DNA of 43,719 nucleotides, taken from NCBI GenBank assembly GCA_002719095.1, contig PBGO01000020.1:31266-74984 (forward strand). The letters run 5' to 3'. The translations under genes were made by a program, and so were the position numbers. The notes beneath the pieces were generated by a model, which made no database searches, was not told where the DNA came from, and worked only from the letters and a program-made list of their open reading frames with translations. Positions within the stretch are counted from its first letter, which is position 1, and each line of letters begins with the position of its first letter. Shown in pieces: positions 29,046-37,555 of this stretch. Source of the DNA: Fidelibacterota bacterium (GTDB lineage Bacteria > Fidelibacterota > Marinisomatia > SCGC-AAA003-L08 > D37C17).

Positions 29046-29927
29046 ATGAATGAAAAACAATTTAAGTTAAAAGTAGGTCTTGCAGAAATGCTAAAAGGTG
29101 GTGTCATTATGGATGTTACTAATCCTGAACAAGCCAAAATTGCTGAGGATGCTGGAGCAGTAGCTGTCATGGCATTAGAACGAATTCCTGCAGATATTAG
29201 GAAAGACGGCGGAATTGCCAGAATGTCTAATCCGGAAATGATAATTGGAATACAAAAAGTAGTCTCAATTCCCGTTATGGCTAAATGTCGAATAGGTCAT
29301 TTCGCAGAGGCTCAAATACTGCAACAACTTGAAGTAGACTTTATTGATGAAAGCGAAGTTTTAACTCCTGCTGATAATGCATTGCACGTAGAAAAACATG
29401 GATTTAAGATTCCATTTGTATGTGGAGCGAGAAATCTGGGTGAGGCATTAAGACGAATAAACGAAGGTGCAGCTATGATAAGAACAAAGGGCGAAGCTGG
29501 TTCTGGAAATATTGTAGAAGCTGTGACGCACATGAGATCGATTGTAGACGAAGTAAAACAATTAACCTCAATGTCTAAACCGGAATTAAATGATTTTGCA
29601 ACAAAGTCAAAAGTACCATTAGAACTTGTAATCGAGACAAGAAATTTGTCAAAATTACCTGTTCCAAATTTTAGTGCTGGTGGCATAGCTACACCTGCAG
29701 ATGCCTCTTTAATGATGCAGCTAGGCGCTGAGTCAGTATTTGTAGGTTCAGGAATATTTAAATCAGAAGATCCTGCGAATAGAGCTAAAGCTGTCGTTGA
29801 CGCTACAACAAATTTTGATAATCCAGAGATTGTAATGGAAGCGTCCAAAAAGCTGAAGGAAGCAATGAAAGGACTTGATATTTCTGAAATACCTGCAGAT
29901 CAAATGTTTCAAGAACGTGGATGGTAG
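29046..29927 (+). CDS. pdxS: Pyridoxal 5'-phosphate synthase subunit PdxS
   Basis: [79 protein letters not shown]. Confidence 0.97.
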
Positions 29928-30499
29928 GAATTCTAGCTCTACAGGGAGACTTTTACAAACATCGCTCAATTCTTAATACAATAGGTGTTGAATCTATTTA
30001 TGTCAAAACGAAATCAGATTTAGAAAAAACCAGAGCGTTAATTATTCCTGGTGGAGAATCAACTACTTTATCAAAGCTGATTGAAAGATTTTCTTTGCGC
30101 GAACCTTTAGTAAGATTTTCAGAAAAATATTCAATTATGGGAACTTGTGCTGGAATGATTATGCTCTCCTCATCATATGGTAATTCAGTTCAAAAAGGCG
30201 TTAACTTATTAAATATTATGGATTTTTCTATTGTAAGAAATGCTTGGGGTAGCCAAATTGATTCATTTGAGCAAAAAATAAGTCTTAAAGAATTTGGAAT
30301 AAATGAATTAAACGCTATATTTATCAGGGCGCCAAAGGTTAATGAGATTGGTAAAAAAATTGTGAAAGTTGGCTATTTTGATAAAAATCCTGTAATCGTT
30401 GAGGATAATTTACATTTAGCTATGTCATTTCACCCAGAACTTGATAATGATTCAAGATTATACAAATACTTTCTAAATAAAAATTATTATGAAACATAA
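29921..30499 (+). CDS. pdxT: Pyridoxal 5'-phosphate synthase glutaminase subunit PdxT
   Basis: [41 protein letters not shown]; overlaps the pdxS 3' end. Confidence 0.95.
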
Positions 30500-32342
30500 A
30501 AAAATTCTTGATGTTATAGATTCTCCTGATGATTTAAAGAAAATATCAGAAAATGAACTCTCTGATCTATCAAAAGATGTTTCCTCTTTAATAAAAAGTA
30601 CAGTTGAAAAGAAAGGAGGCCATTATTCATCGCCTCTTGGAGTTGTAGATTTGACTATAGCTTTGCATTATGTTTATAATACACCTCATGATAAAATTAT
30701 TTGGGATGTTGGTCATCAAGCTTACTCGCATAAAATTCTAACCGGCAGAAAAATGAACTTTCATACTATTAGGCAAAGTGGTGGTCTTAGTGGTTTTTTA
30801 AAAAGAACAGAGAGTATTTATGATTGTTACGGAGCTGGTCATTCAAGTACTTCAATTTCTGCAGCACTTGGATTTGCTCATGCTCGAGATTTAAAAGGAG
30901 ATAATAATAAAGTTATAGCAATCATTGGAGATGGTGCAATAACAAATGGTCTTTCATATGAGGCAATAAATAATGTAGGAATCCATAAAACACAATTAAC
31001 AATTATTTTAAATGATAATAGTAAATCTATATCTGATAGTGTTGGAGCTCTTTCAAAGTACCTTGCTCGATTGATTACAAATCCGACTTATAATCAAACT
31101 AGAAAAAAAGTTTGGAAAATTTTAGATAAGATCCCTTTATTGAAAAATTTTGGAAAAAAAATATTAAGAAAGACTGAAGAAAGTTTAAAAACTTTTCTTA
31201 CACCGGGTGGCCTCTTTGAAGAGATGGGTTTAAGATATATAGGTCCAGTTGATGGTCACGATATTAAGGGTATGATTAAGTTATTTAAAAACATTCGTAA
31301 CATAAATACACCAATTCTAGTTCACGTAGTTACCAAAAAAGGTAAAAATAGTGAATCAGCTGAAAACGATTCAATCAAATATTATAGTTTATCTGGTTCT
31401 GAAAATGAGTTAAAAAAAGAAATTATTAGTTATTCTAAAGCTTTTGGTGAAATAGTAACTTCCGCAGCAGAAGAAAATGATAATTTTGCTTGTATTACTG
31501 CCGCAATGGATATTGGAACAGGGTTATCAAGTTTTAAGAAAAAGTTTCCCAAAAGACTTTTTGATGTAGGTATTGCTGAGGGACATGCTGTGACTTTTGC
31601 CTCTGGCTTATCTTGTGAAGGAATTTTACCCGTTATTGCATTGTATTCAACCTTTTCTCAAAGAGCATATGATAATTTTATTCATGATTTATTACTTCAA
31701 GATTTACCATTTATTTTGTGTTTAGATCGTGGCGGGATTGTTGGTGCTGATGGACCAACTCATCATGGAGTACTGGATATATCTATGTTTTTATCAATGC
31801 CAAATATAATTATAGCTGCGCCCAAAGATGGGAATGAATTGAGAGATCTTTTTCATACGGCCCTTATCTCAAAAAAAGGTTTTGTAATTAGATATCCAAA
31901 AGGCGATTGTATTGATTATCAAAGTGACAAATCTCCAAGAATGATTAGTGTCGGCGCTTGGGAGATTTTAAAAAAAGGTAAAAAATGTGCAATTATTGCT
32001 GTTGGTAGTATGGTAGATATGGTTTTAAAAAATTACACAAAAATAAGTAAAGAAATTGGATATAATCCTTGTATTGTAAATGCTAGATTTATCAAGCCGA
32101 TTGATAAAAAAATCATTAGTGAAATATACAGTAATTTTGAACAGATAATCACTATTGAGGAAGGTGCTCAAATAGGTGGTTTTGGCTCATTTATTTTAAA
32201 TGACGCCAATTTAGCTTCATACACGGGAAAAATTAAAGTAATGGCCATTAATGATGATTTCGTAGACCAGGGAAATCGTTCAGATTTATTGAAAATCTGT
32301 GGCTTATCTGTTGAAAAACTAATTAAAGAGATAAAAAAATGA
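30489..32342 (+). CDS. dxs: 1-deoxy-D-xylulose-5-phosphate synthase
   Basis: WDVGHQAYSHKILTGR, GAGHSSTSISAALGFAHARD, IIGDGAITNGLSYEA, FDVGIAEGHAVTFASGL. Confidence 0.95.
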   Translation: MKHKKILDVIDSPDDLKKISENELSDLSKDVSSLIKSTVEKKGGHYSSPLGVVDLTIALHYVYNTPHDKIIWDVGHQAYSHKILTGRKMNFHTIRQSGGLSGFLKRTESIYDCYGAGHSSTSISAALGFAHARDLKGDNNKVIAIIGDGAITNGLSYEAINNVGIHKTQLTIILNDNSKSISDSVGALSKYLARLITNPTYNQTRKKVWKILDKIPLLKNFGKKILRKTEESLKTFLTPGGLFEEMGLRYIGPVDGHDIKGMIKLFKNIRNINTPILVHVVTKKGKNSESAENDSIKYYSLSGSENELKKEIISYSKAFGEIVTSAAEENDNFACITAAMDIGTGLSSFKKKFPKRLFDVGIAEGHAVTFASGLSCEGILPVIALYSTFSQRAYDNFIHDLLLQDLPFILCLDRGGIVGADGPTHHGVLDISMFLSMPNIIIAAPKDGNELRDLFHTALISKKGFVIRYPKGDCIDYQSDKSPRMISVGAWEILKKGKKCAIIAVGSMVDMVLKNYTKISKEIGYNPCIVNARFIKPIDKKIISEIYSNFEQIITIEEGAQIGGFGSFILNDANLASYTGKIKVMAINDDFVDQGNRSDLLKICGLSVEKLIKEIKK

Positions 32343-33990: not shown

Positions 33991-35115
33991 ATGTCACTCA
34001 ATAATTATAAAAAAGTTTATAATCAAAAGCGTGATTATAGTATTGGTGTGGAAGAAGAATATATGATATGTGATCCCAATACTGGTCAACTTGTAAATAA
34101 AGCAGATTTGATAATGAACTCTGTATCTAACGAAGATAGATTTTCTTACGAGTTATTATTATCAGAAATTGAAGCAAATACCCCAATATGCGAAACAGTT
34201 GATGAATCAATCATGTATTTATCAAAACTTAGATCGGAGTTGTTAATCATAGGCAAAGAAAATGATTTTAAAATTGGATTAAGCGGTACTCATCCTACAG
34301 CTAAACCAAGTGACCAGAAATTTGTTGAAAATAAATCATATAATTGGGTATCTGAGCAACTTAAATATTATGCAAAACGCAATATAACTTTTTCCACTCA
34401 TGTTCACATATCAGTTGATGATCCGGAACGAGCTATTCAAATTACTAATGCAACAAGAAGATGGATTCCTGCTTTATTAGCCCTTAGCTCAAATTCTCCT
34501 TTCTTTGATAATTGTAACACTGGATTTAAATCTTCAAGAACAATGCAGTTTGGAGCTTTTCCGAAAACAAATATACCTGTCAAAATCGATTCCTTTGAAA
34601 GTTATGTAAGTCTTGTTGAAAGCTTAATAAAAACAAATTCTATAAACAAGCCAAGACAAATATGGTGGAAAATTAGACCACATCTAGATTATGGTACACT
34701 TGAGTATCGAATCTGCGATGTGCAAAGGTCACTAAAGAATACAAAAATGATTGTTGCTATAACTCAAGCACTTGTTCATTCGTACGATCAAAAAGTAAGG
34801 TTAAACAAAAATATTCAAGATATGAATTATGAAATATTAAATGATGTCTTCTGGAAAGCAACACGATACGGATTTGATTCTTTGGTAACAGACCCATACG
34901 ATGGTCAGCTAATTTCTTTAAAAGATTATATTTTCAAAATGGTTGACAATATTTACCCTTCCTTGGAAGAACTTGGTAATTTAGATGTAATCGATTCAAT
35001 TAATAAAGTTTTAGAAAACGGAACAGAAGCCGATGAACAATTAGTATTTGAAAAAAAATATGGCATGGATAAATTGCTTATGTTTCTAATGGATAAGGTT
35101 GAATATAAAACCTAA
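33991..35115 (+). CDS. GCS2-family carboxylate-amine ligase (glutamate-cysteine ligase type 2, YbdK/EgtA-like)
   Basis: YSIGVEEEYMICDPNTGQLV, SEIEANTPICETVDE, THVHISVDDPERA, RPHLDYGTLEYRICDVQ. Confidence 0.87.
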   Translation: MSLNNYKKVYNQKRDYSIGVEEEYMICDPNTGQLVNKADLIMNSVSNEDRFSYELLLSEIEANTPICETVDESIMYLSKLRSELLIIGKENDFKIGLSGTHPTAKPSDQKFVENKSYNWVSEQLKYYAKRNITFSTHVHISVDDPERAIQITNATRRWIPALLALSSNSPFFDNCNTGFKSSRTMQFGAFPKTNIPVKIDSFESYVSLVESLIKTNSINKPRQIWWKIRPHLDYGTLEYRICDVQRSLKNTKMIVAITQALVHSYDQKVRLNKNIQDMNYEILNDVFWKATRYGFDSLVTDPYDGQLISLKDYIFKMVDNIYPSLEELGNLDVIDSINKVLENGTEADEQLVFEKKYGMDKLLMFLMDKVEYKT

Positions 35116-35141: not shown

Positions 35142-36212
35142 ATGTCAAGAAAAGTAGTTCACGTAATCGGTACTGGAACAATTGGAGAGCCCTTAATTGG
35201 GCTTTTGTGTGATTTTAAAAAAGACTTAGGAATTGACGAAGTTACATTTCATAAAAATACTCCACTAACAACTGACCGTTCTAAAGTAGTAAGCCTCAAC
35301 AAAAGAGGTGCCAGACTATCAACTCACAAAAGTAAATACAAAGGCTTCATTGATATTGGACTTAAACCTGAGTTCACAACAGAAGAAGCTATTAATAGAG
35401 CTTCAGTAGTAATAGATTGTACCCCTAGTAGTTACGGTTTAGATAATAAAGAAAAATATTATAATAAATTTTTGAATAATACACTTGGATTTATTTCGCA
35501 AGGGAGTGAATTTGGTTTTGGTAAGCCTTACGCTAGAGGTATAAATGACGATTCTTTGATTCGTGGTGAAGATAAATTTATACAAGTTGTATCATGTAAT
35601 ACACATAATTTATCAACAATCGTTCAAACAATTGCTCTTGATAAATCTGATAATAACTTATTAGATGGACGTTTTTTACTCATTAGAAGAGCAAATGATG
35701 TAAGTCAATCTAAGCGATTTGTTCCTGCTCCAGAGGTTGGTATTCATAGAGATCAAAAATATGGAACTCACCATGCTAGAGATGCAGCTCTCTTATTCAA
35801 AACAATGAACAAAGATTTACCACTTTTTTCTTCAGCCATGAAAGTAAATAGCCAGTTAATGCATATTTTGTACTTCACTTTAAAGCTTAAACACAAAACC
35901 TCTATTGATGAAGTAATAGATCGATTGCACTCAAATGATAGGATTTCTTTAACAGATAAAATTAATACAAACGAAGTATTTTCTTTTGGAAGAGATCATG
36001 GTCATTTTGGTAGAATCCTAAATCAAACTGTTGTTTCCATACCAAGCTTGCATATTAACCAACATAAAGATGAAATTTCAGGCTTTTGCTTTACACCGCA
36101 AGATGGCAATTCGCTATTAAGTTCTATTGCCATAACAGAGTGGTTTCTATATCCAAAATCATATGAAGACAAAATCCAATGCTTAAAACCTTTCTTTTTC
36201 AATGAAGTATAA
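35142..36212 (+). CDS. Homologue of archaeal-type (type II) glyceraldehyde-3-phosphate dehydrogenase; phosphorylating-aldehyde-dehydrogenase-like
   Basis: N-terminal nucleotide-binding IGTGTIGEPL; VVIDCTPSSYG; catalytic-Cys segment FIQVVSCNTHNL; RRANDVSQSKRF; THHARD; C-terminal LMHILYFTLKLKHKTSIDEVIDRL. These match the order of type II GAPDH motifs as I recall them. Confidence 0.7.
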   Translation: MSRKVVHVIGTGTIGEPLIGLLCDFKKDLGIDEVTFHKNTPLTTDRSKVVSLNKRGARLSTHKSKYKGFIDIGLKPEFTTEEAINRASVVIDCTPSSYGLDNKEKYYNKFLNNTLGFISQGSEFGFGKPYARGINDDSLIRGEDKFIQVVSCNTHNLSTIVQTIALDKSDNNLLDGRFLLIRRANDVSQSKRFVPAPEVGIHRDQKYGTHHARDAALLFKTMNKDLPLFSSAMKVNSQLMHILYFTLKLKHKTSIDEVIDRLHSNDRISLTDKINTNEVFSFGRDHGHFGRILNQTVVSIPSLHINQHKDEISGFCFTPQDGNSLLSSIAITEWFLYPKSYEDKIQCLKPFFFNEV

Positions 36213-36220
36213 ATTAATCC

Positions 36221-37555
36221 TTGATGATTTATAAATCACTTAAAACACAGATTAGCCAATTATTAAAGGACTCAAATAAAGAGTTTCTTAAAATTCAAAT
36301 TTCTTATTCAGGAGGAATGGATAGCTCCTGCTTGCTTGATATTTTGTACAGAATGAAAAATCAGATAAACATTCAAATTTTTATATCTTACGTGAATTAT
36401 AATACAAGTAGTTATTCAAGTATTGTTCAAAATTATATGCAAAAATCATTTCCTCAAAAAAATACTTTCATAAAATCTGTAAAAAACTGTAAAAATAAAA
36501 ATTTTGAGTCTAATGCAAGAAAAATTAGATATAATTTTCTAGAAAAAATTAGAAAGCAAGAAAATATAGATTATACTTTTACAGCACATCATTTTGATGA
36601 TCAATTTGAAACAATTTTAATGAAGTTCATTGATGGAAGTGATGAAATTACCAAGCAGGGGGTAAGAAAAAAGTATGACAAAATTTACAGGCCATTTCTG
36701 TTTATTAAAAAAACAGAAATTAAAAAATATTGCTCAAAACATAATGTCATATACTTTAAAGATCCAACGAATGAAAATATTAAATTTCGTAGAAATAAAA
36801 TTAGAAAAATTTTAGTTCCACAAATAAAAAATGATACTTTCTTGACAAAAAAAATAAACAGTATTAACCATAGAAGTTTGAAAAATATAAAATATCAAAA
36901 AAAAGAAGTAATAGAATTAATCAACAGGTTAGATGTTGAAAAAAGGTTTGGGCATGTATTATTATATCTAAAAACCGTTGATGTTGAAGACAAACCAACT
37001 GTATTTTTAAAAATTTTATTCAAAGAGATATTAAATAAATTTTATAAAAGTAATAATTTATTTAAGAGTGAATCATTTTGGATTTCATTAATCAAATTTC
37101 TAGAGAGTAGTAAAGTAGGGAGTATTTTTAACTTGAATAATGAAATCAATTTATCTAAGGACAGGACCTGCATCATAATTTATAAAAAAGCGTTTAATTC
37201 AATTAAAATAGAAAATAGAATAAAATTGCAATCTGAGAATATTTTAATAAATGGGAAGCTCACCAGTCAAAAAAAACATTCAAAACAAGCTAAACATAAT
37301 GAATTTATTATTAGTAAAAAAAATTTTGATGAAGGTGTCTACGCGAGAACGTGGAAGAACGGGGATAAAGTGTTTTTATCAAAAGGTTCAAAAAAAGTTA
37401 GTGATTTGTTCACAGATTTTAAACTTCCACGTGTTAAAAAAAAATCGTATCTTATTTTGGAGAACAATTGCGGAGAAATAATTTGGATTCCTGGAATTTA
37501 TAAAAGAATTTATCCAGAATCAATCGACAACTATAAAATTGTTTATAAAGAATAG
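36221..37555 (+). CDS. tilS: tRNA(Ile)-lysidine synthetase
   Basis: P-loop QISYSGGMDSSCLLDIL; ARKIRYNFLEKI; TAHHFDDQFETILMKFIDGS. Confidence 0.9.
   Translation: MMIYKSLKTQISQLLKDSNKEFLKIQISYSGGMDSSCLLDILYRMKNQINIQIFISYVNYNTSSYSSIVQNYMQKSFPQKNTFIKSVKNCKNKNFESNARKIRYNFLEKIRKQENIDYTFTAHHFDDQFETILMKFIDGSDEITKQGVRKKYDKIYRPFLFIKKTEIKKYCSKHNVIYFKDPTNENIKFRRNKIRKILVPQIKNDTFLTKKINSINHRSLKNIKYQKKEVIELINRLDVEKRFGHVLLYLKTVDVEDKPTVFLKILFKEILNKFYKSNNLFKSESFWISLIKFLESSKVGSIFNLNNEINLSKDRTCIIIYKKAFNSIKIENRIKLQSENILINGKLTSQKKHSKQAKHNEFIISKKNFDEGVYARTWKNGDKVFLSKGSKKVSDLFTDFKLPRVKKKSYLILENNCGEIIWIPGIYKRIYPESIDNYKIVYKE

Follow-up and report, generated by a model that had tools for sequence, protein, structure and literature searches.

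The window analysed here, a stretch of 43,719 nucleotides from a Fidelibacterota genome, encodes a divergent protein of 356 residues that is probably a phosphorylating GAPDH representing a third and deeply separate lineage with the type II fold, replacing class I GAPDH in its host and acting mainly in the direction of sugar synthesis. GAPDH is regarded as near-universal and well catalogued, and bacterial type II GAPDHs are already known; the present lineage is unnamed in the curated libraries searched, and a literature search that included GAPDH in SAR406 retrieved no paper describing it. The likely substrate is glyceraldehyde-3-phosphate rather than another aldehyde, and the enzyme is predicted to be NADPH-dependent and probably glucose-making.

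The reading frame, preceded by AAAGGGG about 10 bases 5' of its ATG, contains in the order of the archaeal GAPDH motifs every motif from which the initial annotation had recognised a bacterial type II GAPDH homologue. Several lines of evidence bear this recognition out. First, the protein matches the NCBIfam type II GAPDH model (E = 1e-28), albeit under the equivalog thresholds of NF003251 (100.1 bits, cut-off 185) and TIGR01546 (68.4 bits, cut-off 232.9), and in Pfam it matches the GAPDH C-terminal domain alone, slightly below the cut-off for that domain. Second, its sequence relatives in the PDB are archaeal GAPDHs only, with E = 4e-11 for the single sequence and 3e-21 for the family profile, and profile-profile comparison of the family with known bacterial type II GAPDHs gave E = 1e-18. 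Third, an AlphaFold model (pLDDT 91.7, pTM 0.91) has the predicted archaeal (type II) GAPDH fold: in the structure search that the initial annotation had suggested, Foldseek ranked the four GAPDH structures from archaea first among its PDB matches (TM 0.76-0.84, E about 1e-20) and class I GAPDHs (TM about 0.6) next. On the basis of the NCBIfam, PDB and profile-profile E values and the shared fold, homology to type II GAPDH is beyond chance. The class I model TIGR01534 did not match the protein and matched 1/39 family members (E = 7e-4). None of the ALDH models matched it either and, as its fold is that of GAPDH, it does not have the ALDH fold of a GAPN.

Table 1. Position of the type II GAPDH-like gene, its neighbours and its conserved sites in the window.
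Feature	Coordinates	Strand	Remark
pdxS, PLP synthase lyase subunit	29046..29927	+	Upstream of the GAPDH-like gene; consumes glyceraldehyde-3-phosphate
pdxT, PLP synthase glutaminase subunit	29921..30499	+	
dxs, DXP synthase	30489..32342	+	Upstream; consumes glyceraldehyde-3-phosphate and pyruvate
YbdK-family carboxylate-amine ligase	33991..35115	+	Directly 5' of the GAPDH-like gene; not conserved with it beyond the host's group
Type II GAPDH-like protein, divergent, 356 aa (P0001)	35142..36212	+	ATG at 35142, stop codon ends at 36212; proposed NADP(H)-dependent phosphorylating GAPDH
GTGTIG, dinucleotide-binding glycine motif	35169..35186	+	Residues 10-15, invariant
Lys38	35253..35255	+	End of second beta strand (FHKN); invariant, 83/83 sequences; its archaeal counterpart by alignment is the Lys in the cofactor loop V-T-K-T-K
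SCNTH	35592..35606	+	Catalytic Cys152 (Cys140 of Methanothermus fervidus) and family-specific His155 replacing Thr143
Arg182-Arg183	35685..35690	+	Arg167-168 of M. fervidus GAPDH, invariant
THHARD	35766..35783	+	Conserved His210-His211 pair; H211 83/83, H210 82/83 with an unread letter in the remaining sequence
His241	35862..35864	+	Catalytic His219 of M. fervidus GAPDH, invariant
tilS	36221..37555	+	Directly 3' of the GAPDH-like gene; housekeeping; found at 46 examined loci, window included

Residue conservation was counted over 83 family sequences, the M. fervidus numbering being taken from the PDB alignment. Cys152, His241 and Arg182 align with Cys140, His219 and Arg167 of the M. fervidus enzyme, of which Cys140 and His219 are, as we take it from the class II literature, the catalytic residues, and all three are invariant in 83/83 sequences. 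With the conserved HH pair, the candidate catalytic Cys and HH that had been picked out in the single sequence thus survive throughout the family. The altered active-site neighbourhood that had been proposed alongside them holds in one of its two parts: the SCNTT motif of type II enzymes is absent and SCNTH is found in 83/83 family members, making it a fixed family signature rather than a local oddity, whereas HHARDA is not unusual, given HHAKDV in Sulfolobus GAPDH (1b7g). A family-specific insert precedes the HH pair, and a C-terminal motif, FTPQDGNSLLSS, is unique to the family; like His155, this motif is without counterpart in characterised enzymes. The position of Lys38 is occupied by Lys in archaeal enzymes and by Asp in those bacterial type II enzymes known from plasmids, and the class I GAPDH copies of relatives have an NAD-type Asp (AINDL) at this site. 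Since Lys38 is invariant in the family, use of NADP(H) is predicted, and the site would be of the NADP type. In the proposed reaction, Cys152 would form the thioacyl intermediate and His241 would serve as base, while Arg182/183 and His210/211 may hold the substrate phosphate and Lys38 with neighbouring residues would bind NADP(H). Activity, NADP preference, direction and these exact residue roles are inferred.

The gene is present in 57/59 related Marinimicrobia/Fidelibacterota genomes, including 32/32 near-complete ones. Relatives with names, 52-77% identical, belong to Fidelibacterota, Acidobacteriota (Geothrix), Planctomycetota, Entotheonella, Krumholzibacteriota, Gemmatimonadota and a handful of further groups, our taxonomic statements being based on named records, most of them metagenome assemblies; when the Acidobacteriota group was sampled evenly, 23/89 genomes carried the gene. 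Two copies from records titled Flavobacteriaceae and Thaumarchaeota (L039, L064) are of the Fidelibacterota type, with that phylum's clade and gene order, and probably stem from misbinned or misnamed assemblies. Selenocysteine or another recoding was considered for a copy that has three TGA codons in frame (G042, L289 3961-5022) and rejected, as the alignment shows local frame slips that likely reflect assembly error or decay. Viral origin or carriage was likewise rejected: no viral structure matched at E <= 0.001, and one unannotated 4-kb 'Bacteriophage sp.' record, at 27%, does not rise above plasmid type II genes.

All 39 aligned family members match type II models, the scores seen lying far under the NF003251 and TIGR01546 cut-offs (83-100 bits with NF003251). 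A plasmid search yielded about 20 bacterial type II GAPDHs, so named by NCBI, of which five were aligned; these score about 440-454 bits with NF003251. Because the family is 24-26% identical to archaeal GAPDHs and likewise to the plasmid-borne enzymes, whereas the latter two are ~40% identical to each other, we regard it as a separate deep lineage within the type II GAPDH fold, with no age claimed and long-branch effects possible. The phylogeny that the initial annotation had called for places the family on its own long, fully supported branch, apart from the archaeal and plasmid enzymes (midpoint root, with a warning of long-branch artefact). We put forward as a tentative further possibility that this is a third phosphorylating GAPDH class, which either predates the archaeal one or runs parallel to it, with its own active site (a His three residues after the catalytic Cys), and that this class is ancestral in an abundant marine phylum and the sole GAPDH in its streamlined lineages and in some small Acidobacteriota and Entotheonella genomes.

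A search for class I GAPDH in the host genome with PF00044, PF02800, TIGR01534 and blastp over essentially all sequence (assembly 90% complete, 7.2 kb masked) found none, while PGK and TIM genes lie side by side. Among the 32 near-complete relatives, PGK and the type II-like gene are both present in 32/32 and class I GAPDH in 24/32; TIM is kept in the class I-less genomes tested. The pattern holds in family f6, in which 5/5 genomes (0.8-1.0 Mb, 93-98% complete; 5 kb masked in one of them, G045) lack class I GAPDH and have PGK and TIM, an absence for which incompleteness alone has a chance of the order of 1e-8, if independent. It recurs in two chromosome-level Entotheonella assemblies (G061, G062), which keep PGK and TIM, and in three small Acidobacteriota genomes (G076, G077, G084). 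PGK of the two Entotheonella assemblies is divergent, at about 235 bits versus 400-520 in every other genome whose match was full-length.

The sole GAPDH-fold protein found in the class I-less genomes is the member of the present family. PGK requires a phosphorylating GAPDH partner, and because PGK (and TIM where tested) is kept, these genomes need a glyceraldehyde-3-phosphate dehydrogenase. On the basis that the host and 8/32 relatives lack class I GAPDH yet keep PGK, glyceraldehyde-3-phosphate is the likely substrate, contrary to the initial suggestion of a different one, and the protein likely substitutes for class I GAPDH in marine bacteria with streamlined genomes; in the host, the type II-like enzyme would occupy its place. 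Complementation of this kind is clear only in certain lineages. Many carrier genomes hold both genes, and in the wider Acidobacteriota sample 22/23 carriers keep class I GAPDH, in three cases as a lower-scoring copy only, and 1/23 is entirely without it, so the protein is an additional enzyme there.

The class I genes of Fidelibacterota themselves form a tandem pair, the second copy of which lacks the catalytic Cys (SCTTN to SSTT/SSTI) in 7/7 pairs examined (L104, L107, L108, L109, L114, L117, L118), which suggests a conserved pseudoenzyme; in Krumholzibacteriota and Geothrix the second copy retains the Cys. In the Acidobacteriota sample (G072-G171), a tandem class I pair occurs in 13/23 carriers of the type II-like gene versus 2/56 non-carriers (Fisher p = 3e-7, uncorrected for relatedness).

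In the proposed direction, the main flow would run from 1,3-bisphosphoglycerate and NADPH to glyceraldehyde-3-phosphate, which would supply aldolase, TIM, DXP synthase and PdxS. The host has a class I fructose-bisphosphate aldolase gene that directly adjoins that of a PPi-dependent PFK (G000 contig C2, L241 16770-18967), enolase and ATP-PEPCK (both by motif) and pyruvate kinase. With PPi-PFK and pyruvate kinase, glycolysis is possible, so that the protein might instead be an NAD-dependent glyceraldehyde-3-phosphate dehydrogenase engaged mainly in sugar degradation. We consider this unlikely, though it merits the most serious hearing of the alternatives, since Lys38 takes the place of an NAD-type Asp and since aldolase, enolase and PEPCK are present in G045 of family f6 (the latter two by Pfam), whereas crude motif scans of this genome gave neither pyruvate kinase nor PFK. 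An 'archaeal module' with archaeal FBP aldolase/phosphatase was sought by rough motif searches and blast with an approximate query sequence, which gave none, class I aldolase being found instead. Class II aldolase is absent in 17/18 genomes, host included, which in the two genomes examined is accounted for by a class I aldolase.

In Fidelibacterota, the gene follows one for a methylmalonyl-CoA mutase subunit and is followed, directly or almost so, by tilS, hpt, ftsH and folP; among the 46 loci with tilS, dxs lies upstream in 22/46 and pdxS/pdxT in 18/46. The upstream dxs and pdxS suit a role in supplying glyceraldehyde-3-phosphate, short of proof. Neighbourhoods outside the host phylum showed no conserved partner gene, the neighbours being housekeeping genes that differ by phylum. 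This bears on whether the protein could apply the same phosphorylating dehydrogenase chemistry to a different aldehyde, phosphorylated or small, as the invariant replacement of Thr by His next to the catalytic Cys, the insert before the HH pair, the C-terminal motif and the class I GAPDH of many carriers might suggest. No conserved adjoining partner from any other aldehyde pathway was found, however, and PGK-bearing genomes without class I GAPDH could then neither make nor use 1,3-BPG, which makes such a substrate doubtful.

It is improbable that the protein is a regulatory or moonlighting GAPDH-like protein devoid of this catalysis, with class I-less genomes relying on GAPN or another bypass. 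Although the phylum does harbour inactive GAPDH paralogues, namely the tandem second class I copies without catalytic Cys, the catalytic residues of the present family are all invariant over 83 sequences, GAPN would bypass the oxidative step only and leave PGK partnerless, and none of the ALDHs examined attains the archaeal GAPN cut-off. The GAPDH superfamily is known to include erythrose-4-phosphate dehydrogenase as an alternative activity and dxs lies nearby, but an Epd-like enzyme for the DXP-dependent vitamin B6 route is very hard to credit, given that known Epd is class I rather than type II and that PdxS and PdxT, of the DXP-independent route, are encoded in the same gene string and render Epd unneeded.

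A phosphorylating GAPDH working in sugar synthesis, the reading that we favour, would be a new data point on the origin of the two known GAPDH classes and would bear on NADPH-linked sugar synthesis in streamlined ocean bacteria. Metabolic reconstructions of the genomes in which it replaces class I GAPDH would show glycolysis/gluconeogenesis broken at the GAPDH step. With archaeal phosphorylating GAPDH (TIGR01546; 1cf2, 1b7g, 2yyy, 2czc) the family shares the fold, the catalytic Cys/His/Arg, the HH pair and the cofactor-loop Lys; it differs in being only about 25% identical, in having His155 for Thr143, in the extra insert before the HH pair and in its C-terminal part with FTPQDGNSLLSS. The plasmid-borne bacterial type II GAPDHs (NF003251; Sulfitobacter, Meiothermus, Pontibacter, Rhodococcus and others) belong to the same superfamily, are bacterial and have the catalytic Cys/His, but combine an NAD-type Asp with SCNTT where the present family has Lys38 and SCNTH, and most of those viewed lie within glgP/pgm/AarF gene islands. 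At 4/5 of the plasmid loci (L137-L141, from Sulfitobacter, Meiothermus, Indioceanicola, Pontibacter and Rhodococcus), glgP, pgm, pfkA or AarF/UbiB-type genes lie alongside, so that these loci look like a mobile sugar-metabolism or stress island. A canonical bacterial type II GAPDH, that of Pseudoclostridium, gave no activity when assayed in cell extract (PMC6543838), which counts against the activity proposed here. Class I GAPDH (GapA/GapB; TIGR01534) shares the proposed reaction and the overall superfamily (TM about 0.6), but its signature is missing above cut-off in our protein, and in the larger relatives of the host it usually occurs as a tandem pair. Finally, carriers of both genes would fit a division of labour as in haloarchaea, in which gapI (class I) is glycolytic and gapII (type II) gluconeogenic within one cell (PMC10817205), the very split proposed here, except that the haloarchaeal type II enzyme is a native archaeal one, whereas the type II-like enzyme of the window belongs to a separate bacterial lineage.
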